Shown here: piece after piece, positions 9,125 through 52,370 of the stretch
How the letters are laid out: each line of letters begins with the position of its first letter
Numbering within the stretch: the stretch's first letter is position 1
Assembly: GCA_016210005.1 (NCBI GenBank)
Contig: JACQVA010000194.1
Location: forward strand, 1 to 60,528
DNA length: 60,528 bases
Source of the DNA: Deltaproteobacteria bacterium
GTDB lineage: Bacteria; Desulfobacterota; Binatia; HRBIN30; JACQVA1
Reading direction: 5' to 3'
Translations under genes and position numbers: made by a program
Notes under the pieces: model-generated
Databases searched by the model: none
Told to the model about the DNA's origin: nothing
What the model saw: the letters and a program-made list of their open reading frames with translations, nothing else

Positions 9125-9277
9125 CGCTCACGTCCTCACCTGCTTCGTCGTCGTCTCCCGCCGCGGTGGTAATGCCAGCATAACCCCCGCCGCGCCCGGG
9201 TCGCAAGGTTCGTGTCACGCGCGGCACGCTAGCAGAGGACAGGGGTGTGGCAAGAGGGGTGGGAAGTCGCACCCGCC

Positions 9278-37868: not shown

Positions 37869-37913
37869 GGCCGGCCGCCGCCGTTGGTGATCTACGCCAT
37901 CGCCCCGCCAGTT

Positions 37914-39875
37914 ATGACGCGCGCAGGGTATCGCTCGCTGCTGAGCACCACGGCCTTGCTGCTGGCGCCCGCGGCCTGGGCGGCGCTGCACGGGCCGGTG
38001 ACGGGCACGGCCGACCCGAACGAGCCGGGCGTGGTGTCGGCCGCCGCCGCAGTGCCGGCGCAGCCGGTCGTGGTACCGCGTATGCCCGGGCCCCGGCGCA
38101 ACCACGCGCTCGGCGCCGCTGCCGGGCGCTCCACGCTTGCGCCACCGCTGTCACCACTCCAGAGCGCCCCGATTCTCGCCGGCGACTTTGCCGGCATCCC
38201 CTTCACCTCCTTCTTCCCGCCCGACCCCAGCCTCGCCGTCGGACCCGATGATCTGGTGGCGGTAGTCAACGGGGCGATCGCGCTGTTCACCCGGAGCGGC
38301 GCCAATCCCTGGCAGCGCTCGCTCAACAACTTCTTCAACGGCTCACAGTCGAGCAGCTTCGTCTATGATCCCAAAGTCATCTTCGACCCCCATTCCGGCC
38401 GCTTCTTCGTGGCGGCAATCGACGGCCAGAACAGCCCGAACTCGTGGCTGCGCCTGGCGGTGTCGAAGTCGAGTGCCCCGAGCAATCTAAGCGTGTCGCC
38501 GAGCGCAACCAGCCAGTGGTGGGGATACAACATTGATGCCGATCGCGACGGCGGGGCGCAGATCAATAACAACTGGGCCGATTTTCCCGGGGTCGGTGTC
38601 GATCAGTACAACCTCTACATCACGGCCAACATGTTCGACAACGACGGCGGCTTTCACTACGTCAAGGTTTGGGTGATCGCCAAGGCCGCGCTGTTGAATG
38701 GCGGACCGCCTACGGTCTTCGAGTTTGGGGCGCCGCCGGCGCCGGCGCTGGGCAATCCGGAGACGGGCGAGCCGGACTTCACCATCACGCCCGCGCTCAA
38801 CTTCGACTCCGGCAGCGAGCACATGCTCTCGACCAACGAACTAGCCGGTGGCGATGGTTTCCTCACGCTGTGGACGGTCAACGACCCCGGCGGCACACCG
38901 CTGCTGGCGAGCGCCAACCTAACGGTGGCGGCGTGGAACGGCTTTACCGTGCCGCCGTGCGCACAGGCGGGCGGCGGCACACCGCTCGATGCCGGCGACA
39001 CGCGCGTGCTCAATGCGGTCGAACGTGACGGCAGCCTGTGGGCGACCCACACCCAGCCGAGCGCCGACGGTTTGCGCGCCGAGGTCCGCTGGTACGAGAT
39101 CGACGTCGCCGGGCCGACGCTGCGGCAATCCGGCCTGGTGTCCGATGCCACTCGTTGTTACTTCTATCCGGCGATCATGCCCGACGCGCAGGGCAATGCC
39201 GGCTTGGTCATGAGCGGGGTCGATGAAGCTATCTTCGGCTCAGTCTTCTACACCGGCCGCTTGGCTGCCGATGCCGCCGGCACGATGCCGCCCGTGGCCA
39301 CGCTGCGCGCCGGCCTCTCCAGCTACGTCAGAACCGACGCGGCGGGATTCAATCGCTGGGGCGACTACGGCGGTATTGCCGCCGACCCCGCCGGCGGCGA
39401 GCTCTGGATATTCCACGAATATGCCTCGCACGCGCCCGACCTATGGGACACCTGGCTTGGCCGATTGCAGTTCCCCACACCCGCGCCGTCCCCGACCAGT
39501 ACGGTGGCGCCAACTGCCGGCGCCAGCGTAACCCCGGAGCCGACACCGGCAGCGACAGCCACCGCAAGTGATACGCCGCTGGCGACTTCGACATATACGG
39601 CCAGCCCTACCGCCACCGACACCGCAACGCCGATGGACACTGCGGCTCCCGTTTTCAGCCCGACGTTCACTCCGACAACCGCGCCGCTCGGCCCTCGTGG
39701 CGATGCCAACTGCGACCTGCGGGTTTCAGCCGCCGATGTCTCGGCCGTGGTCCTGCGGCTAACCGGCGTGGAGGTCGCCAGCTGCGCGCAAGCCGATGTT
39801 GACGGCAACGGTCAGGTAACAGCGGCCGACATTGCCGCCGTGATCGAGCGCATCTTCACGGCCGCCGTACTCTAG
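37914..39875 (+). CDS. large secreted protein with Pro/Thr linker and dockerin-like tail
   Basis: 653 residues from ATG 37914. Signal peptide (L-L-S-T-T-A-L-L-L-A-P-A-A-W-A). A long beta-rich region has D-P-K-V-I-F-D-P-H-S-G-R-F-F-V-A-A-I-D and Y-N-L-Y-I-T-A-N-M-F repeats. It is followed by a linker of P-T/T-A-T repeats (about residues 520-590), then G-D-A-N-C-D-L-R-V-S-A-A-D-V-S-A-V-V and D-V-D-G-N-G-Q-V-T-A-A-D-I-A-A-V-I. The last two are EF-hand-like Ca loops of a dockerin-type pair. Exported; possibly surface-attached through the dockerin module. No cohesin is seen here. Function of the main domain unknown. Confidence 0.8.
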   Translation: MTRAGYRSLLSTTALLLAPAAWAALHGPVTGTADPNEPGVVSAAAAVPAQPVVVPRMPGPRRNHALGAAAGRSTLAPPLSPLQSAPILAGDFAGIPFTSFFPPDPSLAVGPDDLVAVVNGAIALFTRSGANPWQRSLNNFFNGSQSSSFVYDPKVIFDPHSGRFFVAAIDGQNSPNSWLRLAVSKSSAPSNLSVSPSATSQWWGYNIDADRDGGAQINNNWADFPGVGVDQYNLYITANMFDNDGGFHYVKVWVIAKAALLNGGPPTVFEFGAPPAPALGNPETGEPDFTITPALNFDSGSEHMLSTNELAGGDGFLTLWTVNDPGGTPLLASANLTVAAWNGFTVPPCAQAGGGTPLDAGDTRVLNAVERDGSLWATHTQPSADGLRAEVRWYEIDVAGPTLRQSGLVSDATRCYFYPAIMPDAQGNAGLVMSGVDEAIFGSVFYTGRLAADAAGTMPPVATLRAGLSSYVRTDAAGFNRWGDYGGIAADPAGGELWIFHEYASHAPDLWDTWLGRLQFPTPAPSPTSTVAPTAGASVTPEPTPAATATASDTPLATSTYTASPTATDTATPMDTAAPVFSPTFTPTTAPLGPRGDANCDLRVSAADVSAVVLRLTGVEVASCAQADVDGNGQVTAADIAAVIERIFTAAVL

Positions 39876-39954: not shown

Positions 39955-41010
39955 ATGCCTGACATGCCGTTGCTGCTTCTGCGCGTTGCCGGCGTGGTGG
40001 TTGGTCTGGCCGGTCTGTGGCTGACCTATCGGCTACGGTTTCGCGCGCGCCGGCTGGCGAACTCGGAGTGGCTGCTGGGTACATTGCTGGCCTTCGCGCT
40101 GGTCGTCTGCGGCTTGGTGCCGAACGCCTTCGACTTCCTGCTCGGCCTATTCGCCTTTCGCAAGGGCGGCGGGCAGCGGCTGATCGGCTTGTTGATCTTC
40201 TCGAATCTGCTCTCGTACGTGCTGATCTACCTCGCGTTGACTCGCAGCAATCGGGCCGAGGAGGTGATTGACCGGGTTGTCCGGGAGCTGGCCAAGCGGC
40301 AGTACCGCGAGAGCCGCGACGCTGACGACGCCCAGCTGTACATCGTCATCCCGGCCTTCAACGAGGCCGCCAACATCGGCGCGGTGTTGGCCGGCGTCCC
40401 GCCGCTGGTTTGCGGGTTGCGCACCAAGCCCATTGTCGTCGTTGACGGCGCCACTGACGACACCGCAACCGTGGTGCGGCAGTGCAGCAGCGAGCCGGTG
40501 TGCTACCTCGTCAATCGCGGCGGGGGCTCGGCACTGAAGGCGGGCTACGATCTGGCCATCGAGAACGGGGGGGATATCGTCGTCACGCTAGATGCCGACG
40601 GCCAGCATCGGCCCGACGAGATTTCCCGATTGGTGCAGCCGATCGTCGATGGCCGCGCCGATCTAGTCAACGGCTCGCGGCTGCTCGGGCGCTACCAGGT
40701 CGAGCGCTGGAGCCGGGCTACCGGCTTGGTGTTGTTCAATTGGCTCATCAGCCTGCTCACGCTCACCCGCATCACCGATTGTTCCAGCGGTTTTCGCGCG
40801 ATTCGCACCGCCGAGCTGGCCAAGTTAGAGTTACGCCAGCCGCAGTTCCACACCTCCGAGCTGTTGATCGAGGCGCTGCGCAAAGGGCTGCGAGTGACGG
40901 AAGTACCGATCAGCGGCGAGCGCCGGCGAAGCGGCGAAAGCAAGAAGCCCGCGTCGTGGCGTTACGGCTGGGGGTTTGCCCGCGCGATCGTGTCGACGTG
41001 GTTGCGCTAG
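39955..41010 (+). CDS. membrane-associated GT2 glycosyltransferase (DPM1/DPG-synthase-like)
   Basis: 351 residues. Residues 1-105 hold three to four membrane helices. The GT2 domain follows: L-Y-I-V-I-P-A-F-N-E-A-A-N-I, V-V-V-D-G-A-T-D-D-T, the D-x-D in V-T-L-D-A-D-G-Q-H, and D-C-S-S-G-F-R-A. A short basic tail ends the protein. The layout is that of enzymes that load sugars on polyprenyl phosphate. Its last 13 bases overlap the GTG start of the next gene, so it belongs to the glycan operon. Confidence 0.87.
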   Translation: MPDMPLLLLRVAGVVVGLAGLWLTYRLRFRARRLANSEWLLGTLLAFALVVCGLVPNAFDFLLGLFAFRKGGGQRLIGLLIFSNLLSYVLIYLALTRSNRAEEVIDRVVRELAKRQYRESRDADDAQLYIVIPAFNEAANIGAVLAGVPPLVCGLRTKPIVVVDGATDDTATVVRQCSSEPVCYLVNRGGGSALKAGYDLAIENGGDIVVTLDADGQHRPDEISRLVQPIVDGRADLVNGSRLLGRYQVERWSRATGLVLFNWLISLLTLTRITDCSSGFRAIRTAELAKLELRQPQFHTSELLIEALRKGLRVTEVPISGERRRSGESKKPASWRYGWGFARAIVSTWLR

Positions 41011-43106
41011 CAGCGGCCGAGGTCCGGCCGGCGTGGCGGGCCGGGGCGATGGCTTTGGCGCTGGTGCTGCTGTGGGGAGCGGCCTGGGCCGCGAACTGGC
41101 AAGCGTGGCTGGCGGCTTGGCCCTGGCCGCGAGTACTGGCGGCCTGGCTGCTCTTCGTGCTGCCCGGGGTGTGGCTGGCGCGCTGGCTCGATGATGCCGC
41201 CGGCTTTGTCCTCAGTCGCCATCTGAGCGCCGGCTTCGCGATTGCGCTGGGTATCACGGGGCTGTTGGGCACACTCAGCCGCGTCACTCATCTCCCATAC
41301 GGAGTCATTCGCCTGCTGTTCTTCGGCGCTGGCGCGGTGGCGCTCGCCGGCTTCGTCCTGAGTCGGCGCACGCCGCTGCCACGAAAGCCGGGCCGGCTGC
41401 TGTCGGGGGCGCTGCCGGCACTGGCCGCCGCCGCACTCGCCGTGACTGTGGGACTGGGCCGAGTTAGCAGCGCGGACGACTACTCCACCACCGTCTTCGT
41501 CACCGCCTTTGTGCAGTCTGCCGGTTCCAACTTCGAGGACCCGGTGTTCGGTACCGGCCATCCATTGGCGCCGCGCTTTTGGCTGAGCTTCTGGCCGTTG
41601 GCGCAAGCCCTGATCGCCAGCAAGGCACGGGTGAGCGGCATCGAAATAAACAACGTCTATCTCACCCCCTTCTTGTTAATCTGGTCGCTACTCGGCGTCT
41701 TCAGTCTGGCGCGCGCGCTCGGATGGTCGCGCCGGCTCGCCACGCTCGCCGTCGTGTCACAGGTGGTGAGCCTGGTGTTGCTGCTCGGGCGCGATCAAGT
41801 CGGGGATGCGTTCTTTGAGCGTATTGTGCAAGACAAGGTTCTGGCCGCTGCGGTCATCTCACCTCCGTTCTTCGCTTTGCTGGCGAGGTTCCTCTCGGCA
41901 CCCGGCTGGCGCCGGCTGTTGCTGCTGCTGTTGGCGGGGCTGGGGTTGGCGTTCACTCACGGCACCATGCTGGGAATCGCGGTGCTGATGGCGGCGGCGC
42001 AGGGGTTGCTCGACGGGGCTGTGAGGCGCAACGCGACTGGGCTCCTCTTTCTGGCCGTTTTGCTGGTCGTGCTCACGCTGCCGCAGTTGGCACTGCGCTT
42101 GGTCGACCATGCGATGAATCGCCGGTTGCAGTATTCCGTCACCGCGGCGCGGGAAAGCGGCGCGCTCAGCCCGATGAGAGAGCGGCGCCTGCGGGTGCTC
42201 GCCGACCAGCGCTTCTACGGCGTTGCTCCCGAGTTGGTGTGGGGGCTTTCATTTGCCGGGGTGGCCGCCGCCGCAGTGCTGGCGTTGGCCGCAGCGCGAG
42301 AGAGCGTTGCGGCCCGCTACCTAATCGCATCCGCCAGCGTCATCGCCGCCGGAGTGTTTCCCTACACCGGTTGGTTGCTGGGGCTTCTGCTGACCCCGTT
42401 CCACTTGTGGCGGCTGACTTGGTTCACCCCTTTCGGAATAGCCTGGGCGTTCCTGATCGGGGCCGGGTTGAAGCTGCTCGAGCGACGCGGCGCCCGAGGC
42501 CGACGCCTTAGTCGCTGGAGAACTGTGGAAGCGGTCGCGGTGGTGTACTGCCTGCTTTTTGCGACTGCGGCAGTCGCGCTGGTCGCTGCCTACGAGAAGA
42601 ACCCTTTGCCGCTTAGTCTGCACGATCCGCCCGATTGGCAGAGGCTAGCTTACGTTCGCGGAGTCAACTACTCTCGGCCCGGCTGCCGGCCGCGATACGC
42701 CGACTTGCGGGAAGTCGGCCGCCGGTTGGACGCGGTGATCGCGGGCGAGGCGGTGGTTGTCGGCGATCGGTACGTGAATGACTTCATTCCCTCGATGTCG
42801 GCGAAAGCCAAACTGCTGGCCTATCGTGTGACCAAGGAACGCTTGAACAAGCAGACTGTCTACCATGGTAGCTTCGAGGCCCAGGCCGCCGAGCGGCGCG
42901 TGGCCGACTGGCGCGGTGTCACCACCAGTGGCCCCGCGGAAGAGCGCCTCGCTATCCTTGAGCGCTATCGCGTCCGGTTCCTGCTCCAGTGCGGCGGCAC
43001 CGGCTGGGCCGAGGCGCTGCGGCAACAGCGTCCCGATCGGATCGTCGCGTTGTACCGGGCGGGCAACCTTCACTTGTATGGCGTGCAGCTGAACCAGGCA
43101 GGCTGA
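40998..43106 (+). CDS. polytopic membrane protein of the glycan locus
   Basis: 702 residues if the GTG at 40998 is used (overlapping the GT2 stop); ATG 41049 would remove 17 residues. About a dozen membrane helices. The first large loop reads G-S-N-F-E-D-P-V-F-G-T-G-H-P-L-A-P-R-F-W, acidic and aromatic like the catalytic loop of GT39/GT83-type enzymes. The extracytoplasmic C-terminal ~150 residues are soluble. I judge it a GT-C-like sugar transferase or a carrier-lipid-linked assembly protein; the family is not certain. Confidence 0.65.
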   Translation: MVALAAAEVRPAWRAGAMALALVLLWGAAWAANWQAWLAAWPWPRVLAAWLLFVLPGVWLARWLDDAAGFVLSRHLSAGFAIALGITGLLGTLSRVTHLPYGVIRLLFFGAGAVALAGFVLSRRTPLPRKPGRLLSGALPALAAAALAVTVGLGRVSSADDYSTTVFVTAFVQSAGSNFEDPVFGTGHPLAPRFWLSFWPLAQALIASKARVSGIEINNVYLTPFLLIWSLLGVFSLARALGWSRRLATLAVVSQVVSLVLLLGRDQVGDAFFERIVQDKVLAAAVISPPFFALLARFLSAPGWRRLLLLLLAGLGLAFTHGTMLGIAVLMAAAQGLLDGAVRRNATGLLFLAVLLVVLTLPQLALRLVDHAMNRRLQYSVTAARESGALSPMRERRLRVLADQRFYGVAPELVWGLSFAGVAAAAVLALAAARESVAARYLIASASVIAAGVFPYTGWLLGLLLTPFHLWRLTWFTPFGIAWAFLIGAGLKLLERRGARGRRLSRWRTVEAVAVVYCLLFATAAVALVAAYEKNPLPLSLHDPPDWQRLAYVRGVNYSRPGCRPRYADLREVGRRLDAVIAGEAVVVGDRYVNDFIPSMSAKAKLLAYRVTKERLNKQTVYHGSFEAQAAERRVADWRGVTTSGPAEERLAILERYRVRFLLQCGGTGWAEALRQQRPDRIVALYRAGNLHLYGVQLNQAG

Positions 43107-43135
43107 GGCAGGGCGGGGTTCTAAGGAGGGCACAC

Positions 43136-44362
43136 ATGCGCGTGTTGATTGCCGGCATCGATGGATATCTGGGCTGGCCTTTGGCGCTGGCGCTGGCCGC
43201 GCGCGGTCACGAGCTGGCGGGGGTGGACTTGTTCCTGCGACGCCGATGGGTGGAGGAAATGGGCAGCCACAGCGCAATCCCGATTGCCTCCATGCACGAG
43301 CGTCTGGCCGCCTATCGCGAGCACTTCGGCGCCGCCCTATGGTTTCGCGAAGGTGATTTGCGCGCCCCGGGGTTCGTGCGCCGCGTGTTGGCCGAGTTCC
43401 AGCCGGAAGCGGTCGTGCATCTCGGCGAGATGCCCTCGGCCCCTTATTCGATGATTGACGTCGACCACGCCGTCTTCACCCAGACCAACAACATCGTCAG
43501 CACGCTCAACCTCCTCTTCGCCTTGCGCGACACATGCCCGGACACCCACCTGGTCAAGCTCGGGACCATGGGTGAGTACGGCACGCCCAACCTCGACATT
43601 CCCGAAGGCTTCTTCGAGATCGAGTACCGCGGCCGCCGCGACCGCCTGCCGTTCCCCCGCCAGGCGGGCAGCTGGTACCACCTCAGCAAGGTGCACGACA
43701 GCCACAACATCATGTTCGCCTGCCGCACTTGGCAGCTACGCTCGACCGACGTCATGCAGGGCATTGTCTACGGCACTCGCACCCGGCAGATCACCAGCGA
43801 CGCGCGACTGGGCACGCGCCTCGACTTCGACGAGGCCTTCGGCACCGTGATCAACCGCTTTTGCTGCCAGGCCGTCATCGGCCATCCGATTACGCTCTAC
43901 GGCGCGGCGCAGCGCCAGCGCGGCTTTCTGCCTCTGCGTGATTCCATTCAATGCCTGACGCTGGCGATCGAGCATCCGCCGGCCACCGGCGAGTATCGGG
44001 TTTTCAACCAACTCGAAGCCGTCTACAACCTCTGCCAGCTGGCCGAACGGGTGCAGCGCATCGGCGGTGAATTCGGGCTCGCCGCCGATATTCGGCGCCT
44101 CGACAATCCCCGCGTCGAGGCCGAGGCGCACTATTACAACCCCGATCACCAGCACCTGCTCGATCTGGGATACCGCCCGACCCACGACATGGATACCGAG
44201 CTGCGGGTGTTACTGGCTGACCTGCTGCCCCAGCGCCAGCGCATCGTGGCCAAGCAGGCCGCGTTAGTTCCCGGCATTCACTGGGACGGCCGGCGCAGGG
44301 CCGCCCGTGCGGTTGACGAGGCCGTGCCGGGGCCAGCGGCCAGGCGCCGGCAGGCGAGCTGA
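43136..44362 (+). CDS. sqdB: UDP-sulfoquinovose synthase (SQD1 family)
   Basis: 408 residues from an ATG with TAAGGAGGG upstream. NAD site G-I-D-G-Y-L-G-W; then G-E-M-P-S-A-P-Y-S-M-I-D, H/Q-T-N-N-I-V-S-T-L-N-L-L-F-A, K-L-G-T-M-G-E-Y-G-T-P-N, S-W-Y-H-L-S-K-V-H-D-S-H-N, and R-V-F-N-Q plus N-P-R-V-E-A-E-A-H-Y-Y-N at the end. The catalytic Thr144, Tyr181 and Lys185 align with those of plant SQD1. The enzyme converts UDP-glucose and sulfite to UDP-sulfoquinovose. No SqdX/SQD2-type glycolipid transferase is nearby. Instead it sits in an export locus, so the product probably enters a glycan; that is inference. Confidence 0.88.
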   Translation: MRVLIAGIDGYLGWPLALALAARGHELAGVDLFLRRRWVEEMGSHSAIPIASMHERLAAYREHFGAALWFREGDLRAPGFVRRVLAEFQPEAVVHLGEMPSAPYSMIDVDHAVFTQTNNIVSTLNLLFALRDTCPDTHLVKLGTMGEYGTPNLDIPEGFFEIEYRGRRDRLPFPRQAGSWYHLSKVHDSHNIMFACRTWQLRSTDVMQGIVYGTRTRQITSDARLGTRLDFDEAFGTVINRFCCQAVIGHPITLYGAAQRQRGFLPLRDSIQCLTLAIEHPPATGEYRVFNQLEAVYNLCQLAERVQRIGGEFGLAADIRRLDNPRVEAEAHYYNPDHQHLLDLGYRPTHDMDTELRVLLADLLPQRQRIVAKQAALVPGIHWDGRRRAARAVDEAVPGPAARRRQAS

Positions 44363-44422
44363 AGCGGCCGCCGCTCGCCTTGGCCGCGAGCGCGGCTTTC
44401 TGGTATCTCACGCGCGCTGGCT

Positions 44423-45265
44423 ATGGCTGAGGCGGATTCGAGTCCCGAGAGTCGTCTTGTCACCAGGAGCGCGCCACCGCGCCGAGGGCAGCGTCTTGCC
44501 CGCTACCTCGAGCTGGTGTGGGTGTTGGCGCGGCGGGATTTCGAGGCGCGCTACCGCGGCAACGTGCTCGGACTGCTCACCGGGCTGGTAATTCCACTGG
44601 CGTTCTTGGTGGTCTACAGTTTTGTTTTTTCCAGCATCGCGCCGGTACGGGTGCGTCCCGGCGCTGATCGAGCGGACTATGCCCTGTTCGTGTTCGCCGG
44701 CTTGTTGCCGTGGGCGATCCTGGCCGACTGCGCGGCGCGGGCGCCGCGGCTGATTTGCGGCAACGCGCATCTGGTGCGCCGGGTAGCGGTGCCGCTCAGT
44801 GCGCTGCCGCTGTCCCTCGTGGTGGCGGCCTACCTCCAGTTCTTGCTTGGTTGCGTGGCCTTGTTTCTGGTCACCTGGCTGATCCGCGGGACGCCGCCGT
44901 GGCTGGTGCCGCTGGCGCCGCTGGCGTTGATCGGGCACCTCGCCTTTTGTGCCGGCGTGGTCTGGCTGCTCGCGGCCGTCGGCGCGTTTGTGCGCGACCT
45001 CGGCGATGTCGTCGCGCCGGTGCTGGCGATGTGGCTGTTCGTCACCCCCGTGCTGTATCCGGAGAGCAACCTGGCGCCACTGGGTTGGTTGCAGTTCGTC
45101 AACCCGGTGTCGCCCCATATCACCATTGCTCGCAACCTGATGTTCGACGGCCAACTGCCTTCGCCCGCTGCGGTCATGACCTCGCTGGGCATCGGCGTGG
45201 TCTGTGGGCTGGGCGGCTGGCTGACGTTTCGCACCGTCCGACCCGCTTTTGCCGATGTGGTCTGA
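44423..45265 (+). CDS. ABC-2 polysaccharide export permease (Wzm-like)
   Basis: 280 residues with six membrane helices. The N-terminal amphipathic part L-A-R-R-D-F-E-A-R-Y-R-G-N-V-L-G is the usual gate helix of O-antigen/teichoic-acid exporters, and V-N-P-V-S-P-H-I-T-I-A-R is a late family block. Forms the channel of an ABC exporter with the following gene, whose ATG overlaps its TGA (TGATG). Located at the inner membrane. Confidence 0.9.
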   Translation: MAEADSSPESRLVTRSAPPRRGQRLARYLELVWVLARRDFEARYRGNVLGLLTGLVIPLAFLVVYSFVFSSIAPVRVRPGADRADYALFVFAGLLPWAILADCAARAPRLICGNAHLVRRVAVPLSALPLSLVVAAYLQFLLGCVALFLVTWLIRGTPPWLVPLAPLALIGHLAFCAGVVWLLAAVGAFVRDLGDVVAPVLAMWLFVTPVLYPESNLAPLGWLQFVNPVSPHITIARNLMFDGQLPSPAAVMTSLGIGVVCGLGGWLTFRTVRPAFADVV

Positions 45266-46563
45266 TGGACGGTCCGGCAATCGAGGTGGTCAACGCCGCC
45301 AAGGTGTACCGCATCTACCGCCACCCGCTCGATCGCATCTGGCAGCGGCTGACGGGCAAGCGCTTGTGCACCGACGTATGGGCGCTGCGCGAGGTGACGC
45401 TGTCGGTACCGCACGGGGTGACTTACGGCGTTGTCGGCCGCAATGGCTCAGGGAAATCGACGCTGCTGCAAGTGTTGGCCGGAACCGTCACCCTGACCTC
45501 GGGCCGAGCCCAGGCGCACGGGCGGGTCAGCGCCGTGCTGGAACTCGGCGCCGGCTTCAACCCCGAGTTCTCCGGCACTGAGAACGCCGCCATCGGCGGC
45601 TTGCTCGCCGGCCTATCGCGCCGCGAGATGGCCGGCCGCATGGCGGCAGTGCGCGCCTTCGCGGATATCGGCGAGGCGTTCGACCGGCCGCTCAAGACCT
45701 ATTCCAGCGGCATGATCGCGCGTCTGGCCTTTGCCACGGCTATCAGCGTCGATCCGGAAATATTGCTGATCGACGAAGTGCTGGCGGTTGGCGACGCGTT
45801 TTTTCAGCAGCGCTGCATGCGCCGGCTGCGGGAGCTACAGCTGGCCGGTGTGACCATCATCTTCGTCACCCACGACTACAACGCGGTCACCAGCTTATGC
45901 GGCCGGGCCGCCTGGTTGCACCAAGGAGAGCTGATGGCCGAAGGCGAGCCCGAGCGTGTCGTGCGCGAGTACCTCGGCTCGCGTGTGGTTGAGGACACCG
46001 GCGCCCTCGACGTCACCGCGCCGCCGCCGCTGGTACTCACCGATGAGGTGGCACCGGCGTTGGAAATCCCGCATATCGATCATCGCTACGGCTCAGGCGA
46101 AGGTGAAGTCCTGGGCATCGCGCTCGACACCGACGGCGGCGTGCAGCCGGGCAGCTACTGCCGGGTGCGCATCACGGCGCGGGCAGTGCAGCCGATCGCC
46201 CAGCCGATCCTTGGGTTCACCATGCGCAACCGCTTCGGCGAAATAGTCACCGCCACCAACTCTCTTTACCAAGGCATCGCCGTGCCGGCGCTGCAGCCGG
46301 GAGACAGGTTGACGGTGAGCTTCGAGTTCAACTGGCCGGCGCTAGCTGCCAGCCACTATTCCCTTTCACCGGCGCTCTCGGCCGGCACGCTCGACCAGCA
46401 CCGCATCTGCGATTGGATCGACAACGCCCTGATTGTCGAGAGCAGCGACCCGGGCGGGCGCTACGGCTGGCTGCGGCTAACCGACGTTAGCGTCAAGGTC
46501 GCACTTCGTCCGGCCGCCGGCCCCAGTGCACCCCCGCGCTCGAGCGCCGCAATCGGCGGGTGA
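45265..46563 (+). CDS. ABC exporter ATPase with C-terminal ligand-binding domain (Wzt-like)
   Basis: 432 residues. ATPase motifs: Walker A G-R-N-G-S-G-K-S-T (58-66), Q-loop-side E-L-G-A-G-F-N-P-E-F-S-G, signature Y-S-S-G-M-I-A-R-L-A-F-A (the O-antigen-type variant), Walker B I-L-L-I-D-E-V-L-A-V-G-D. From about 270 a beta-sandwich domain begins (G-E-V-L-G-I-A-L-D-T-D-G-G, L-G-F-T-M-R-N-R-F-G-E), the sort that recognises a capped glycan end in Wzt. It therefore probably exports a finished glycan with a terminal mark. The last 71 bases overlap, in the opposite direction, the end of the 1314-residue glycosyltransferase gene. Confidence 0.9.
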   Translation: MDGPAIEVVNAAKVYRIYRHPLDRIWQRLTGKRLCTDVWALREVTLSVPHGVTYGVVGRNGSGKSTLLQVLAGTVTLTSGRAQAHGRVSAVLELGAGFNPEFSGTENAAIGGLLAGLSRREMAGRMAAVRAFADIGEAFDRPLKTYSSGMIARLAFATAISVDPEILLIDEVLAVGDAFFQQRCMRRLRELQLAGVTIIFVTHDYNAVTSLCGRAAWLHQGELMAEGEPERVVREYLGSRVVEDTGALDVTAPPPLVLTDEVAPALEIPHIDHRYGSGEGEVLGIALDTDGGVQPGSYCRVRITARAVQPIAQPILGFTMRNRFGEIVTATNSLYQGIAVPALQPGDRLTVSFEFNWPALAASHYSLSPALSAGTLDQHRICDWIDNALIVESSDPGGRYGWLRLTDVSVKVALRPAAGPSAPPRSSAAIGG

Positions 46564-49500
46564 GCACCTGCGGCAGCAGCCGCTCGAACAGCGCCACGTA
46601 CTCGCGCTCGGCAAAGCACGACTGGAAACGAAAACGCACGGTGTCTCGCGCGTTGCGCCCGAGGCTGGCGGCGCGCTTGCGGTCACGCGCCAACGCCAGC
46701 AGCCCGGCGGCGATAGCCATGGCGCTGTTCGGCGTGTACAGCAGTGCCGTCCGCTTGTGATTGACCGCTTCGCGGACACCGGGCAGGTCGGGAGCCAGCA
46801 GCGGCAGCCCACAGCCCATGGCTTCGAGCAGTGCCCGCGGTAAGTGCTCGCGCTGGCCGGTGGGACAAACGAACACGTTGGCCGCGAGCAGCGATTGCAG
46901 ATCGATGTCGGGAGCGACATGGAACCGCTCGGCACAGCCACTGGCTTCGATTTCTGCTTGTAGCGCAGTCCGGTCAACCGCCAGCCCGCCGCCTAGAAGG
47001 ACGTGCAGCGGCTCGGCGGGGCGCGCGGCCAGACAACGCGCGGCGGCCCTGATGAGGTCGCGTTGCGCCGCCAGCGAGCAGGGGTGGCCGGTCATAGCTG
47101 CCAGCCAGGCGTCAGCCGGTATGCCTAAGCGGGCGCGCACGGCCGGCCGGTCGAGCGCGCGCTCGACACCGGCGATGGCCTCGAGTTCGACGCCGCTATG
47201 GATTACCCGAAACCGTGCAATCGGGTCGGGGTAGCCAAAGCTCAGACACGAGGCGGCACTGCCGAAGATGACCGAATCGGCGTGCTCGAGCGCCGCCAGC
47301 ATGCGTGCATGCAGCCGCGGCTCGAACCGCCACAGTCCCACGTGCCAGAGCGGCTGCTCTTCCATGAACCACACCGCGGGCACACCGGCGAGCCGGGCGG
47401 CATCGACAGCCCAGAAGCTCGCCCAGCAACCGGCCGCAACCAGATCGAAGTCGCCCGCCTGCAAAGCCGTGAGCAAGTAATTGCGGCGGCGGCTGAAACT
47501 GAGCTGGTCAATGATGCCGTGGGAGGCCGGGACCGTGGCGCGGACTACGCAGCCCGCATGCTCGAAGGCCTGGCGCAGTCGTCCCTCGCGCTCGCTCAAG
47601 ACCGTCACCCGATAACCGGCACCGCGCAGCGCGCCGGCGACGGCGAGCAGGCGCAGGCCGGCTTCGTCGCGCTCCAGGTTGCCGGTTACCACCGCCACGT
47701 GCGCTGCCAGCGGCAGGTGCACCGGCCGGGTGAGCCCGCGGATGATCTCGAAGCGCCCGTCGGTGCGCACCAGGTTGGGGTTGTAAGCCTCGCCGCGGTC
47801 GAGTCGCTCGCGCCAGCGCTGGCGCATCGCCGCGGCCTCGTGCGGATCAACCACCCGCTGGCGGGTGGCGTGCTCGTAATGCAACAGCTCGACCGAGCCG
47901 GCGTAAATGCTGCGGTAGCCCGCTTGCCCCAGGCGCAGGCAGTAGTCCACGTCCTGGTAGGCGACGCGCAGGTCGGTTTCATCGAAGCCGCCCTGAGCGA
48001 GAAAGAGATCACGGGAGGTGAGCAGGCAGGCGCCAGTCACTGCGGGATACTCGCGGATCACCACCGGATAGTATAGATAGCCGGTGCTCCATTCTGGCAA
48101 GCCCTGGAAGGCGTGCAGGGCGACTCCGGCCGGTACCAGCAGCACCCCGCCGTGTTGCACCCGACCGTCGGGGTACAGCAACCGCGCGCCGACCGCTCCA
48201 ACCTCCGGCAACTGCGCCAGGCCCACCAGCGTCTCCAGCCAGTCAGGCGAGACGACTTCGGTGTCGTTGTTGAGAAACAACACGTAGGGCGAGGTCACGG
48301 CGGCGGCGGCCTGATTCATCAGCCGCGAGAAGTTGAAGCCGTCGCGGCCTTTGAACCGCAGCACCCGGACACCGCGGCCGGCACACTGGCGCAGGTATCT
48401 GAGTGTGGCGGGATCATCGCTGTCGTCGTCGACGATCACGATCTCGTAATTGGGGTAAGTGGTCAGAGCCTCGATGCTGCGCACGCAGCGCTCCACCATC
48501 GCGCGCTGGTTGCGGGTCGGGATAATGATGCTGACACGCTCACTGCCGTCCGGCTGAAAGCGCAGCCGGTAGACAGCCGCGGGGCCTTGGCCATTCAAGG
48601 CGGGCCACTCGGCGCGTGCTCGTACCCCGCGCCGGGCCAGTGCCTCGTTGAGCGCACGCGCGCCGCCAGCAATGTCCGGCAACGGCGCCTGCGCGCCCGC
48701 GTGATAGAGCACCAGGGGAACGTGGGCGATCCGCTGCGTGTGCTCGCTTACGCGCAGGACGAAATCGTAATCGGCGGCACCGCCGAAATCGGAGCGCCAG
48801 CCTCCGACTTGTGCAAACACGCTCCGGCGCACCGCCAGGCCGGTCCCGCAGTAGCAGTACGAGAGCAGTAGCGCCGGATTCCAGTCGGGCCGAAAGGCGG
48901 GGGCGAAGCGGCGGCCGCTGTCGTCGATTCGATCCGTATCGAAGTAAACCAAGTCGGTCTCCGGCCGCTCGGCCAGCAGCTGCGCCAAATGGAACAGGCT
49001 GTCGGGGGCGAGGACATCATCCTGGCCCAGGAACAGCAGCCACTCGCCGGTGGCCAGCGCTGCCGCGGCGTTGACCGTGCCTCCTGGTTCACTGTTTGTA
49101 GCAAAGCGTATCCTGGGCTCGTCCGCCGCCAGGCGGCCCGGCAACTCGCCGGCAACGCACAGTTCCCAGTGGGGGTAGACTTGCTCCCGTACGGATGCGA
49201 GCGCGCGCTCCCATCGTTGCGGTGCCGGGCGTTGAGCGGCGAGGATCACGCTGATGACCGGGCGCTGTGGCAGCGCGGCGGTCGCCTGCGCCAGCAGCGG
49301 CTGGTACTCGGGCCGGTAGTCGTTGATGGCGCGCCAGCGTGCATAGGCGCCGGCACCGCGGCGGGCGCGCACGCGGGCGGTGTGCAGGAAGTGCCGGCCG
49401 GAGCGCAGCAACAAGACCCACTTGATCACCTCGCGGCGCGTACGCGGGAAGCGCTGGTTGCGGGCGAAGTCCCACAGCAGACGCACCAGGTCGCGATAGT

Positions 49501-50437
49501 TAGCGAGCGGCTGGCGCAGCAGTCGCGCCACCAGCCGCGGCTGGCCGACTGAGCGGCGCAGATATCCGCCATGCCAGCGCAGGTGGCGCAGCGCCGAGCC
49601 GTACGCCGCGGCCGCCGCCGGATCGCGCGCGAACAGCGCCCGGGCGCCGTTGCTAACACCCTGGCGCAGCAGCTCGAGCGCGCGCGCCACGACGTAAGCC
49701 GCATACTTCTTGCCGCCGAGATGGGTGACGGCGTACAAGCGGCGCGCCTGCCAGCGCAACCGGTCGGCGGCCTCGCTGCTGCGGGCGAGTGTGCCGCCCT
49801 GGTGGTGCACCACCTGCTGGCTCGGGTCATAGAGAATGCGCCAACCAGCTGCGGACAGCCGCCGGCACAAATCGACATCTTCCTCGTACAAGAAGAAGCG
49901 CTCGTCGAATCCGCCCACGGCGCGGGCGGCGGCAGTGCGGAGCAAGACGGCGGCACCTTCGACCCAATCGACCCGCGCCAATGCCGCCGGCAGCGGCTCG
50001 AAGCGGGCCAGCGCCCGGCGCAACGAGTCGCGGGCCGAGGGAAAGCGCCGCCGCGCGCAGGGCTGCGGCCGGCCGGCGGCGTCGATGAGCCGGCAGCCGA
50101 CGGCAGCGGCTTCGGCATGTGCTTCGAGCACGTTCGCCAAGCCGCCGACGGCGTCATCTACCAGCTCGGTGTCGCTGTTGAGCAGCATGACGAACTCAGT
50201 TGTGATCGTGGCTAAGGCGCAGTTGTTAGCCGCGCCGAAACCCAGGTTGCGGGCGTTACACAGGAGGTGCACGGCGGGAAAATCCTCCGCCACCATCTCG
50301 GCGCTGCCGTCGCCGGAGCCGTTGTCGACCACCACCACCGGATAGCCGCCGGCGTGGGTACGAATGGAGTCGAGGCAGGCGCGCAGCAACGCGCTGGTGT
50401 TGTAGCTCACGATCACGATGGTGGCGCGTGGGTCCAT
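46493..50437 (-). CDS. four-domain glycosyltransferase (GT2-GT2-GT2-GT4)
   Basis: 1314 residues. Domain 1 (about 5-240): V-I-V-S-Y-N-T-S, V-V-V-D-N-G-S-G-D and L-N-S-D-T-E-L, like rhamnosyl-type WbbL enzymes. Domain 2 (about 391-610): V-I-S-V-I-L-A-A-Q-R, weaker, with L-L-F-L-G-Q-D-D in place of the usual acidic motif. Domain 3 (about 631-880): V-S-I-I-I-P-T-R-N-Q, I-V-D-D-D-S-D-D and L-N-N-D-T-E-V. Domain 4 (about 908-1290): a GT4/GT-B part with a C-lobe E-H-L-P-R-A-L-L-E-A-M-G-C-G. Probably builds a repeating glycan on the cytosolic face. Convergent with the ABC exporter. Confidence 0.85.
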   Translation of the reverse strand: MDPRATIVIVSYNTSALLRACLDSIRTHAGGYPVVVVDNGSGDGSAEMVAEDFPAVHLLCNARNLGFGAANNCALATITTEFVMLLNSDTELVDDAVGGLANVLEAHAEAAAVGCRLIDAAGRPQPCARRRFPSARDSLRRALARFEPLPAALARVDWVEGAAVLLRTAAARAVGGFDERFFLYEEDVDLCRRLSAAGWRILYDPSQQVVHHQGGTLARSSEAADRLRWQARRLYAVTHLGGKKYAAYVVARALELLRQGVSNGARALFARDPAAAAAYGSALRHLRWHGGYLRRSVGQPRLVARLLRQPLANYRDLVRLLWDFARNQRFPRTRREVIKWVLLLRSGRHFLHTARVRARRGAGAYARWRAINDYRPEYQPLLAQATAALPQRPVISVILAAQRPAPQRWERALASVREQVYPHWELCVAGELPGRLAADEPRIRFATNSEPGGTVNAAAALATGEWLLFLGQDDVLAPDSLFHLAQLLAERPETDLVYFDTDRIDDSGRRFAPAFRPDWNPALLLSYCYCGTGLAVRRSVFAQVGGWRSDFGGAADYDFVLRVSEHTQRIAHVPLVLYHAGAQAPLPDIAGGARALNEALARRGVRARAEWPALNGQGPAAVYRLRFQPDGSERVSIIIPTRNQRAMVERCVRSIEALTTYPNYEIVIVDDDSDDPATLRYLRQCAGRGVRVLRFKGRDGFNFSRLMNQAAAAVTSPYVLFLNNDTEVVSPDWLETLVGLAQLPEVGAVGARLLYPDGRVQHGGVLLVPAGVALHAFQGLPEWSTGYLYYPVVIREYPAVTGACLLTSRDLFLAQGGFDETDLRVAYQDVDYCLRLGQAGYRSIYAGSVELLHYEHATRQRVVDPHEAAAMRQRWRERLDRGEAYNPNLVRTDGRFEIIRGLTRPVHLPLAAHVAVVTGNLERDEAGLRLLAVAGALRGAGYRVTVLSEREGRLRQAFEHAGCVVRATVPASHGIIDQLSFSRRRNYLLTALQAGDFDLVAAGCWASFWAVDAARLAGVPAVWFMEEQPLWHVGLWRFEPRLHARMLAALEHADSVIFGSAASCLSFGYPDPIARFRVIHSGVELEAIAGVERALDRPAVRARLGIPADAWLAAMTGHPCSLAAQRDLIRAAARCLAARPAEPLHVLLGGGLAVDRTALQAEIEASGCAERFHVAPDIDLQSLLAANVFVCPTGQREHLPRALLEAMGCGLPLLAPDLPGVREAVNHKRTALLYTPNSAMAIAAGLLALARDRKRAASLGRNARDTVRFRFQSCFAEREYVALFERLLPQVLTRRLRRSSAGVHWGRRPDEVRP

Positions 50438-50483
50438 GCGGAGCGGGCTGCGGCGGGCCGGCGACGGTCGCGATCGCGGCGGC

Positions 50484-51287
50484 TTAGGGCTGCCCGAGCA
50501 GGCGCCGCAGCTCCTGCGCCGGCTGGCCGCGCCGAACGGTTAAGGCGTAGTCGTAAATCCGCCCGAGGGGAAAGGCCACCGCGGTGGCGAGCGACACCCA
50601 CGCCAGCAGCGGCCAGCCGGTGAGCAGCTCGCTCAACAGGGCCAGACTGATGATCACCGTCAGGCCGGTACCCAGCGGCAAGCCGTAGCGATGGGTGGCG
50701 CGCTCGAAGCCGAAGTCGCCCGCCAGCCGGCCCTCACGTGACTGGATCAGCGGATGGACGTGCACCGGACCGGCGGCCGCACGGGCGAGCAGCTCTTCGA
50801 GCAGAATCGAGGCACGCACGCGATAGAGCGAAATCGTCGGCGTGCAGAAGATCGCCGCGATAGCGCCGAGCAGGAGCGGCACCAGCGCGCCCTGCGCCAG
50901 TGCCGCCCGCAGCCCGAGGGCGAGCACCACCAGCGGCGTAACGAAATAATGGCCGGCAACGTCGGCAAAAACGAAGGTGGCATCATCGGCGCGGCGCGCG
51001 CGCGCCACCTCGCCGTCGGCACAGTCGAGCACTTCGCCGAGATATGCCAGCGGCACGAACAGCAGTGATACGGCGATCTCGGGACAAGCGAGGCAGGCGG
51101 CGCTGAGCAAACCGACGGCGATGTTGGCGGCGCTGACGGCGGGGGCCGATATGCCCCAGCGCAGCAACAGCCGGGTGAGGTGCTTGGAGACGGGCCGGCA
51201 GGCGCGCTGCGTCAGGCCGGTACCGACCCGCGGCTGCAGTGCCTCGATCTCGCTGATCGTCAGCGCCGGTGTGCGCAACTGCTCCAC
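50484..51287 (-). CDS. CDP-alcohol phosphatidyltransferase-family membrane protein with variant motif
   Basis: 267 residues, about six membrane helices. The family motif D-x2-D-G-x2-A-R-x8-G-x3-D-x3-D is seen as D-C-A-D-G-E-V-A-R...A-T-F-V-F-A-D-V-A-G-H. The first three Asp are kept, but the Gly is Phe and the last Asp, thought to be the catalytic base, is His. Such enzymes move a phospho-alcohol from a CDP donor. The changes suggest altered chemistry or substrate. It starts 9 bases after the stop of the GT2 gene on the same strand. Confidence 0.8.
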   Translation of the reverse strand: MEQLRTPALTISEIEALQPRVGTGLTQRACRPVSKHLTRLLLRWGISAPAVSAANIAVGLLSAACLACPEIAVSLLFVPLAYLGEVLDCADGEVARARRADDATFVFADVAGHYFVTPLVVLALGLRAALAQGALVPLLLGAIAAIFCTPTISLYRVRASILLEELLARAAAGPVHVHPLIQSREGRLAGDFGFERATHRYGLPLGTGLTVIISLALLSELLTGWPLLAWVSLATAVAFPLGRIYDYALTVRRGQPAQELRRLLGQP

Positions 51288-51296
51288 GTCGTTGCC

Positions 51297-52370
51297 TCAG
51301 CGCTCCCGCGCCACCGCCAGTGAGTCGAGCCGCCCGCCGCGGAACGTCCGCGGTGCCGCCCGCCCGCGCAGGCGCTCGCCGAAGGCCCACAGCTTCAGCG
51401 CCCGCCCGACCAGGTCCAACAACAGGTATTGCGGCAGCGCGCGGCGGTAGTCGCCCAGCCCACGCCGCCTGAGGGCCTCGATCCGCCAGCCGCAGGCGGC
51501 GGCGTACGCCAGCAGCGGCGCGGCGCACGCCAGCGCCAGAGCGATCGACCACCGTGCGGCCACCAGCGCGGCGGGCAGGGCTGCGAGTAAGACAGCACTG
51601 GCGGCGGCTTGGCGCGCCGCCGCTGTGAGCGGCACGATCGCCATCGCCCCACGCCGATTGCGCAGCATCGTGGCGAGCAGCCCACCCAGGGTCCAAGGAA
51701 CCATGGTGGTGGCGCGGGCACGCGGCGCGTAGGTGATCTCCCAGCCCTCCGCCTGCAGCGCGCGCCCGAGATAGAGATCGTCCTTGCTGCCAATGGTGGC
51801 CGGCAGCAGCACCGGCAGCGCCGCGGGTGGCAGCGCCGCTCGTGGCAGGGCGACGAACTCGCCGCTGAGGGTGCGGTCGAAATGGAGGTCCTTGTGCAGG
51901 CGGCGGTTGAGCTCCCAGTAGCGCGACACCCAAGTGTCGAGGCGCGGCCGGGCGGCGCCGTGGGCGACGATGCGAGGATTACGGGCGAGCATTTGCTCCA
52001 GCTCGCTCAGCGCCGGCGGTTCCAGTTCGGTATCGGCGTCGAGCAGCACGATCATATCCGCGTGCGCCCGGGCGCAGCCCAGTTGCAGCGCCGCATTCTT
52101 ATTACCGGCAGCCAGGGTGGCGACCTCGAAGCGGCCGAAGTGCTCACCGTGGCGCGCCGCTGCTGCCGCCGTGTCGTCGCTGCCGGCAGCCACCACGATC
52201 ACTTCGAGATGGGCCGCGCCGATGGTTTGCACCGCCAGCGCCTGTAAGCAGGCGCCGATGGTGCCGGCCTCGTTACGGGCCGGGATCACCACGGTGGCGC
52301 GCGGCGCCGTTGCCGCTGGCGCGGTGGCTGGGCCACAATCAAGCTGGTGCAGATCGGTCGCGGACGCCAT
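51297..52370 (-). CDS. GT2 glycosyltransferase with C-terminal membrane helices
   Basis: 357 residues. V-V-I-P-A-R-N-E-A-G-T-I at the start, V-V-A-A-G-S-D-D-T, D-x-D in L-L-D-A-D-T-E-L, and a K-D-D-L-Y-L-G-R-A-L motif; two to three membrane helices late in the protein (W-S-I-A-L-A-L-A-C-A-A-P-L-L-A). First gene of a minus-strand unit leading into the CDP-alcohol transferase and then the four-domain glycosyltransferase. Sugar and acceptor unknown. Confidence 0.85.
   Translation of the reverse strand: MASATDLHQLDCGPATAPAATAPRATVVIPARNEAGTIGACLQALAVQTIGAAHLEVIVVAAGSDDTAAAAARHGEHFGRFEVATLAAGNKNAALQLGCARAHADMIVLLDADTELEPPALSELEQMLARNPRIVAHGAARPRLDTWVSRYWELNRRLHKDLHFDRTLSGEFVALPRAALPPAALPVLLPATIGSKDDLYLGRALQAEGWEITYAPRARATTMVPWTLGGLLATMLRNRRGAMAIVPLTAAARQAAASAVLLAALPAALVAARWSIALALACAAPLLAYAAACGWRIEALRRRGLGDYRRALPQYLLLDLVGRALKLWAFGERLRGRAAPRTFRGGRLDSLAVARER

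Follow-up and report, generated by a model that had tools for sequence, protein, structure and literature searches.

Sulfoquinovose is described, in the passages of PMC12890257 that treat it, as the headgroup of sulfoquinovosyl-diacylglycerol (SQDG) and as a constituent of N-glycans in some archaea. Multi-component transmembrane glycosylation systems consist of a polyprenyl-phosphate sugar synthase, a flippase and a GT-C glycosyltransferase (passages of PMC8035078). In Citrobacter youngae O1, a three-component system that includes a flippase decorates an O antigen exported by Wzm/Wzt (passages of PMC11127046). The DUF2304 domain is typical of GacJ-like proteins, and GacJ enhances GacI, the maker of N-acetylglucosamine (GlcNAc)-P-undecaprenol (passages of PMC8327497). 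Here we analyze eight genes at positions 39955-52370 of a 60,528-nucleotide window from a Deltaproteobacteria bacterium of the class Binatia (JACQVA010000194.1). The window spans an entire contig; the draft genome to which it belongs totals 5.9 Mb in 268 contigs, with completeness of 97.6% and contamination of 4.5%. An earlier note on this DNA had read the eight genes as one export locus for a sulfoquinovose-containing surface glycan. Our evidence favors extracytoplasmic addition of sulfoquinovose, with a lipid-linked sugar as donor, over internal polymerization and export.

Three forward-strand genes carry this interpretation. The first (39955..41010) encodes GT2a, a predicted polyprenyl-phosphate:sulfoquinovose transferase with a PF00535 domain and a DUF2304-like N-terminal membrane region; the second (41049..43106) encodes a 685-residue GT-C glycosyltransferase, identified by the fold of its AlphaFold model and predicted to be a periplasmic sulfoquinovosyltransferase; and the third (43136..44362), preceded by the sequence AAGGAGG, encodes a 408-residue SQD1/Agl3-family protein, a predicted UDP-sulfoquinovose synthase assigned by homology to 1qrr and by a match to the NF041015 model just under its cut-off. 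We propose a plausible mechanism by which these proteins might act together. First, the SQD1-family enzyme would convert UDP-glucose and sulfite to UDP-sulfoquinovose. GT2a would then transfer sulfoquinovose to polyprenyl phosphate, with its DUF2304 part acting like GacJ, and the lipid-linked sugar would cross the inner membrane with the help of a flippase, possibly a PF03706-type protein from another part of the genome. Finally, the GT-C would move sulfoquinovose to a periplasmic acceptor, for which the candidates are the glycan that the neighboring Wzm/Wzt module exports (unproven), the lipopolysaccharide core, a protein or another glycan. We give this sequence of periplasmic transfer an even chance of being correct. 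Two parts of a multi-component glycosylation system are represented in the window, the polyprenyl-phosphate synthase by homology and the GT-C by model fold.

The SQD1-family protein matches Arabidopsis SQD1 (1qrr) at E 5e-118 over residues 2-384, nearly its whole length, and is the sole close SQD1 of its genome. It carries the catalytic set of short-chain dehydrogenases/reductases (T144, M145, G146, Y181 and K185), so the family assignment made earlier, with Thr144, Tyr181 and Lys185 in place, holds. The fingerprint given for UDP-sulfoquinovose synthases in passages of PMC8987622, [ST]MG...Yx3K, is retained. Against NF041015 the protein scores 549 bits, under the 575-bit equivalog cut-off; this cut-off is uninformative here because none of the 10 family members scored reaches it, and a cyanobacterial SQD1 lying near SqdX scores 478 bits. 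In Agl3, mutation of Arg101 to Ala abolishes activity, Thr185 is partly needed, and the His equivalent to His95 of the window is essential (passages of PMC4388408). The window protein keeps His95, Met145, Glu147, Tyr148, Ser179, Tyr181 and Lys185, with Ser184 at the place of Agl3 Thr185, and all Agl3 residues whose Ala mutants are inactive are kept except Arg101. Judged from its sequence, the protein likely forms UDP-sulfoquinovose.

A tree of 95 SQD1-family members, from which the Agl3 sequence itself is absent, splits into two sides with support of 100/100. One side (52 rows) comprises cyanobacteria, Bacillota and other groups, and in 16 of its rows a member of a loose SqdX-like GT4 cluster lies within about 1.3 kb. 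On the side of the window (43 rows) are archaea, rows from viral contigs and a 21-member clade that includes the window (18 bacterial, 3 viral-contig); four Thermoplasmata loci on this side have a loose SqdX-like cluster member nearby. Tree position taken alone as proof of a glycan role was rejected: it is suggestive only, because the side of the window includes Chloroflexota whose genomes have SqdX-type proteins. Two viral-catalogued contigs of 241 kb and 173 kb (IMGVR_UViG_3300009034_000001 and _000002; L010 and L011, L-numbers denoting SQD1-bearing loci) carry the same SQD1, 60% identical to that of the window; they represent large phages bearing an envelope-sugar gene or else host DNA catalogued in error. 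Six Chloroflexota loci (L025-L029, L032) place SQD1 in an unexpected housekeeping setting, among amino-acid biosynthesis genes in largely conserved order (prephenate dehydratase, semialdehyde dehydrogenase and histidinol dehydrogenase, from a Pfam run on L028 only).

The homologs of GT2a point to lipid-linked sugar synthesis. Its ten PDB sequence matches comprise DPMS 5mlz, ArnC (three), sll0501 (three) and glucosyl-3-phosphoglycerate synthase (three); sll0501 we take to be a GtrB-type enzyme. AglJ and PpgS models rank best in NCBIfam, both far below their cut-offs, and the DUF2304 match is weak in the window protein (24.8 bits vs a cut-off of 25.5) and over the cut-off in its L024 and L064 relatives. 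A DADGQH motif lies at residue 213. By homology, GT2a is thus predicted to be a membrane-linked GT-A-type synthase of a polyprenyl-phosphate sugar, bearing out the polyprenyl-type GT2 call of the earlier note.

Conservation of GT2a with SQD1 was examined in a class set of 148 genomes, including that of the window (G000). In the class searches, scoring covered part of the first-look candidates of each genome (7 to 14 for the genomes cited), so absences are strong hints rather than proofs. Neighboring genes were mostly called by homology and Pfam searches, because open reading frame (ORF) picking often took wrong frames in these GC-rich genomes. SQD1 was found in 17 genomes at E ≤ 1e-70 and reached 594 bits or more in five. 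Full-length GT2a (E ≤ 1e-40; best 14 or fewer candidates scored per genome) was found in four: G000, G001 (a genome of the same family), G005 and G117. All four carry GT2a and a close SQD1 (at least 594 bits) on the same contig, up to 12.5 kb apart (G001); the fifth close-SQD1 genome, G082, lacks full-length GT2a. This co-occurrence gives a Fisher p of 2.6e-7, uncorrected for kinship, and the four genomes span three families. GT2a, GT-C and SQD1 recur together on one contig in G001 and G117. Contig C17 of G001 carries GT2a (60% identical to that of the window), a PF03706 protein, five GT-C paralogs and SQD1 (about 71%), in that order, and a fatty-acid-hydroxylase-family gene on the opposite strand lies within the GT-C group; the order in G117 (L133) is GT2a, PF03706, sulfatase-like protein, GT-C, SQD1. 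The protein between PF03706 and GT-C in the G117 module (L133 2838-5096) has a Sulfatase-superfamily domain (PF00884).

The G082 genome offers a further view of this SQD1 branch. Its SQD1, 62% identical to that of the window, lies at 9167-10354 of a capsule-type locus (L132; G082:C22:15000-34900) with Poly_export/SLBB (Wza-like), Wzi, Wzz-like (at the cut-off), Wzx-like and weak Wzy-like (24.7 vs 31.7 bits) proteins. This setting supports, independently of GT2a, a glycan role for the SQD1 branch of the window. As an observation in its own right, the locus may be a second route for sulfoquinovose into bacterial polysaccharide, and G082 also holds another SQD1, 45% identical.

A scan for GT2a beside SQD1 in 94 loci (L010-L103, E ≤ 1e-6; L018-L023 belong to this class, and L019 is G005) extended the pairing to other lineages. 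Outside the class, GT2a homologs lie near SQD1 in deltaproteobacterium NaphS2 (L027), in Actinomycetota metagenome-assembled genomes (MAGs; L024, L059, L060), in a Chloroflexota MAG (L064), in MAGs without a named phylum (L052, L056) and in Kribbella (L096); matches in L022 and L040 are weak. The two genes overlap by 4 bases in L024 and L059, are divergent in L056 and L060, and are separated by an epimerase-like ORF in L064. In Kribbella, GT2a is preceded, in the same protein, by a PMT_2-like region that scores 19.8 bits, short of the 26.1-bit cut-off. In a set of 50 SQD1-bearing genomes (50 of 80 named loci), the GT2a profile matched 23 at E ≤ 1e-40, of which 12 reach 265 bits, a line for full-length GT2a set after the gap was seen; the other 11 score 140-167 bits and mainly cover the GT2 domain. 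SQD1 falls inside the 1.5 kb flank in 8 of these 12 genomes. In a tree of 40 GT2 proteins chosen by similarity to GT2a, all 12 SQD1-linked GT2a proteins fall in one clade of 17 (96/99), and none of 11 tested GT2 paralogs of the window genome (of 18) does so. Because G005, NaphS2 and L024 cluster together in both the SQD1 and GT2a trees, it looks as if the pair moved together among them. The conserved partner of SQD1 is the DUF2304-GT2 protein, and large membrane proteins and a PF03706 protein frequently accompany the pair. Somewhat short of an even chance, in our estimate, is the broader proposal that a polyprenyl-phosphate-sulfoquinovose donor and its module (SQD1, DUF2304-GT2, flippase and GT-C) have moved across phyla and sulfonate surface molecules outside the cytoplasm in some bacteria that lack SqdX.

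The membrane protein encoded between GT2a and SQD1 has no Pfam or NCBIfam match, and a PDB sequence-profile search gave one chance-level match. An AlphaFold model built from 12 sequences reached a predicted local distance difference test score (pLDDT) of 79.5 and a predicted template modeling score of 0.86; 5 sequences had given a poor model, with a pLDDT of 46. Its closest structural matches are yeast STT3 (Z 19.2 over 481 residues, root-mean-square deviation 6.4), PglB (15.3), AftA (14.7) and ArnT (13.5), followed by the AglB C-terminal domain (8.8) and a GPI-transamidase chain (8.1), with the remainder below Z 6. At E ≤ 0.001, all nine Foldseek matches are GT-C chains, by title or, for two translocon entries, by interpretation. 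Asp143, at the start of the first extracytoplasmic loop, is invariant in all 12 aligned rows. These results support a GT-C fold, as modeled, for the protein that the earlier note had called GT-C-like. Its profile exceeds 300 bits only in G000, G001, G117 and G118, and gives 53-83 bits in four more class genomes; in G118, neither SQD1 nor GT2a was matched in the class searches, and the GT-C contig is just 4.7 kb. In G005, three tandem paralogs of about 700 residues beside SQD1 (L019 3308-9632, minus strand; 48-53% identical) mirror the five GT-Cs of G001, and one of the two tested matches PF10131. The window itself holds a second GT-C-like protein (9278-10915, minus strand, 545 residues) with PMT_2/PMT Pfam matches.

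Flippase candidates are supplied by PF03706 proteins, which we assume to be flippases of lipid-linked sugars. Seven are encoded elsewhere in the window genome, and in G001, G117, G005, L024 and L064 one lies within the module or close to it: it adjoins GT2a in L024 and L064 and is 6.6 kb from SQD1 in G005. A homolog lies 3 kb from GT2a in L027.

With the SqdX-type protein L092 as query, no SqdX match was found at E ≤ 1e-20 in G000 (13 of 34 candidates scored), G001 or G117. All 32 PF00534 places of G000, spread over 25 stretches and the window, score at most 92 bits on a profile of four SqdX proteins vs 239-705 bits for nine control proteins; SqdD-type transferases were not searched. The absence of SqdX reported earlier thus extends, at these thresholds, to the genome. 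Across the class, SqdX is found at the loose E ≤ 1e-20 in 30 of 148 genomes and is strong in G009 and G011.

Several observations weigh against the proposed mechanism. No flippase gene was found in the module of the window itself. Foldseek TM-scores of the GT-C model are just 0.35-0.47 (by query), and among the 7 of 25 G005 candidates that were scored, none matches the GT-C profile at E ≤ 1e-8. Profile comparison linked the window GT-C neither to the large membrane proteins next to SQD1 in L019, L024, L027 and L064, a test that says little because a known PMT control also failed, nor to those in L036, L037 and L039, whose genomes have SqdX. No hydrophobic ORF of at least 300 residues lies near the SQD1-GT2a pair in L052, L056 or L060, the first two being short contigs. 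GT2a lies apart from SQD1 in 4 of the 12 GT2a genomes, and SqdX-like matches occur in G005 (two, weak, at 4e-26 and 3e-23) and Kribbella (one, at 239 bits). At the position of Agl3 Arg101 the window protein has Pro100, Pro stands there in 10 of the 12 GT2a genomes, and L019, L024 and L027 also carry Tyr for His95, essential in Agl3. Among the 50 sampled genomes, 30 have Pro at this position and 17 have Arg, while the remaining three did not fit the search pattern and read GQMPSAP; the residue alignment left out L015 and L016, both included in the SQD1 tree. Because Pro100 replaces the Arg that Agl3 requires, as Pro does in most relatives sampled, we infer, rather than assert, UDP-sulfoquinovose activity.

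The main rival explanation is that GT2a is a non-orthologous replacement of SqdX that makes SQDG or another membrane sulfolipid, with the GT-C unrelated or acting downstream. Of the 50 SQD1 genomes, 12 have GT2a (at least 265 bits), 19 have SqdX (E ≤ 1e-80), none has both and 19 have neither (Fisher p 0.0012). The two proteins so seldom share a genome in this set that GT2a appears to consume UDP-sulfoquinovose in place of SqdX, and loci showing the SQD1-GT2a pair alone, without a long membrane protein, would fit a lipid product, above all L060. However, the exclusivity is weaker when the SqdX threshold is relaxed to E ≤ 1e-40, which gives 21 SqdX genomes, with NaphS2 and Kribbella carrying both proteins (p 0.04), and it loses significance when the tree is taken into account (p 0.125-0.25, with 0 pairs agreeing in direction and 3-4 opposed). 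Moreover, the relatives of GT2a produce polyprenyl-phosphate sugars, and a flippase-like protein and a GT-C in the module, like the Kribbella fusion, make sense for a lipid-phosphate-linked donor. We therefore regard a sulfolipid product as unlikely.

A second alternative is that SQD1-family proteins of this branch have changed chemistry and make a nucleotide sugar other than UDP-sulfoquinovose, which GT2a and GT-C then use. The Arg-to-Pro and His95-to-Tyr replacements described above speak for it. However, the window protein keeps His95 and the other Agl3 residues listed, Pro also occurs in 8 of the 19 genomes with SqdX, all eight of them Chloroflexota, and the NF041015 score exceeds that of the cyanobacterial SQD1 near SqdX. 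On balance, altered chemistry appears improbable.

Directly after SQD1, on the same strand, lie genes for Wzm, an ABC-2 polysaccharide exporter permease (44423..45265, PF01061), and Wzt, an exporter ATPase with ABC_tran and a Wzt_C carbohydrate-binding domain (45265..46563; best PDB match 8dku). In G001, the counterparts of the export half, Wzm (79%), Wzt (71%), the four-domain glycosyltransferase (50%), a CDP-alcohol-like protein (69%) and GT2b (56%), are grouped on contig C11, and the SQD1 module is on C17. A single 12.4 kb export locus was rejected on the basis of this split, and 39955-44362 and 44423-52370 form two separable modules that lie side by side in the window genome. Strong Wzm orthologs (605 and 465 bits; next 136) are confined to G000 and G001 among the 148 class genomes, while the SQD1-GT2a pair reaches G005, with a Wzm match of 122 bits on another contig, and G117, with none at E ≤ 1e-25; Wzm/Wzt export, as the earlier note had it, is thus outside the conserved system. 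Of what that note proposed for the locus, the glycan rather than SQDG setting of the SQD1 gene stands, and GT2a, GT-C and SQD1 recur together in relatives, whereas linkage of Wzm/Wzt to SQD1 is not kept; of the two findings it had named as counting against itself, an SqdX elsewhere and unconserved neighbors, the export half alone shows the latter. Because both modules are kept in G000 and G001, they may cooperate though their linkage is not conserved. The weakest rival, in which cytoplasmic assembly of a carrier-linked glycan incorporates sulfoquinovose and Wzm/Wzt exports the product, draws on the start of Wzm 60 bases past SQD1, the carbohydrate-binding domain of Wzt, terminator-like sites no more frequent than in shuffles and the presence of both modules in G000 and G001, but the contig split, the retention of the SQD1 module without a strong Wzm ortholog in G117 and G005, and the extracytoplasmic transfer indicated by GT2a and GT-C make it the least probable of the three.

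The remaining genes of the locus are on the minus strand, and the gene list and order agree with those of the earlier note in Pfam, NCBIfam and PDB searches and the GT-C model. Promoter and terminator scans gave chance-level results (8 terminator-like sites vs 7.2 in shuffles). A 1314-residue glycosyltransferase of four domains (46493..50437; three GT2 stretches and one Glycos_transf_1, GT4-type) is likely the backbone polymerase of the exported glycan. GT2b (51297..52370) matches PF00535/PF13641. With Wzm, a Wzt with a C-terminal binding domain and a multi-domain glycosyltransferase, this half has the parts of an ABC (ATP-binding cassette)-transporter-dependent glycan locus; no WbdD-type chain-terminating enzyme was found by Pfam among the eight locus genes, to which the search was confined. 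The weakest identification is a CDP-alcohol phosphotransferase-like membrane protein (50484..51287), with no Pfam match and only an NCBIfam NF040950 match at E 6e-4. The canonical CDP-alcohol transferase motif ends in Asp; here it reads DCADGEVAR...FADVAGHY, with His for the last Asp. The same His occurs in the G001 protein (69% identical), possibly marking a variant subfamily. Directly upstream of the locus, 37884-39875 encodes a protein in which a Thr/Pro-rich linker is followed by a C-terminal type I dockerin-like domain.

No report of sulfoquinovose in a bacterial surface glycan was found in titles and abstract beginnings, subscription literature being mostly outside this scope, and the sulfoquinovose passages of PMC8987622 and PMC7922415 report no such use. 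We found its use on surface molecules outside the cell described only for some archaea. If the proposed mechanism is true, surface molecules gain sulfonate charge by a route other than SQDG, sulfoquinovose degraders have a further source of the sugar, and SQD1 genes in some bacteria without SqdX are explained. The proposal makes an enzymatic step testable, the reaction of UDP-sulfoquinovose and polyprenyl phosphate with GT2a, and a Gtr/ArnCT-type sulfoquinovose system across phyla would be unexpected to a specialist.

Each of the closest described systems shares part of this arrangement. The SqdB/SqdX pathway of cyanobacteria and Bacillota likewise has an SQD1-family donor enzyme; in contrast, no SqdX was found in the window genome, and the window SQD1 lies across the 100/100 split of the tree. 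Agl3 of Sulfolobus acidocaldarius, like the window enzyme as read here, feeds a surface glycan and not SQDG, but that glycan is an archaeal N-glycan, and the Arg101 essential there is absent here (passages of PMC4388408). In C. youngae O1/O2 (ORF15/ORF14/ORF12, GT136), as in the window, a polyprenyl-phosphate sugar synthase and a GT-C are encoded beside Wzm/Wzt and a multi-domain polymerase, but the sugar is a pentofuranose from phosphoribosyl pyrophosphate, the synthase is unrelated and the flippase is of the MATE family (passages of PMC11127046). The GacI/GacJ/GacK/GacL system of the Streptococcus pyogenes group A carbohydrate resembles the module in its DUF2304-helped synthesis of a lipid-linked sugar and in a polytopic membrane protein that transfers GlcNAc to ABC-exported polyrhamnose (passages of PMC8327497). 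It differs in its sugar, its separate synthase and DUF2304 proteins, its Wzx-like transporter and its lack of SQD1. In Mycobacterium tuberculosis, Rv3632 presumably holds a DUF2304 domain. There, in a system with a different sugar and no SQD1, the GT2 PpgS (Rv3631) and this small membrane partner make polyprenyl-phosphate-N-acetylgalactosamine for the membrane glycosyltransferase Rv3779, much as GT2a would supply the GT-C (passages of PMC3485146). The module is best read as a sulfoquinovose version of the Gtr/ArnCT/GacIJL type.

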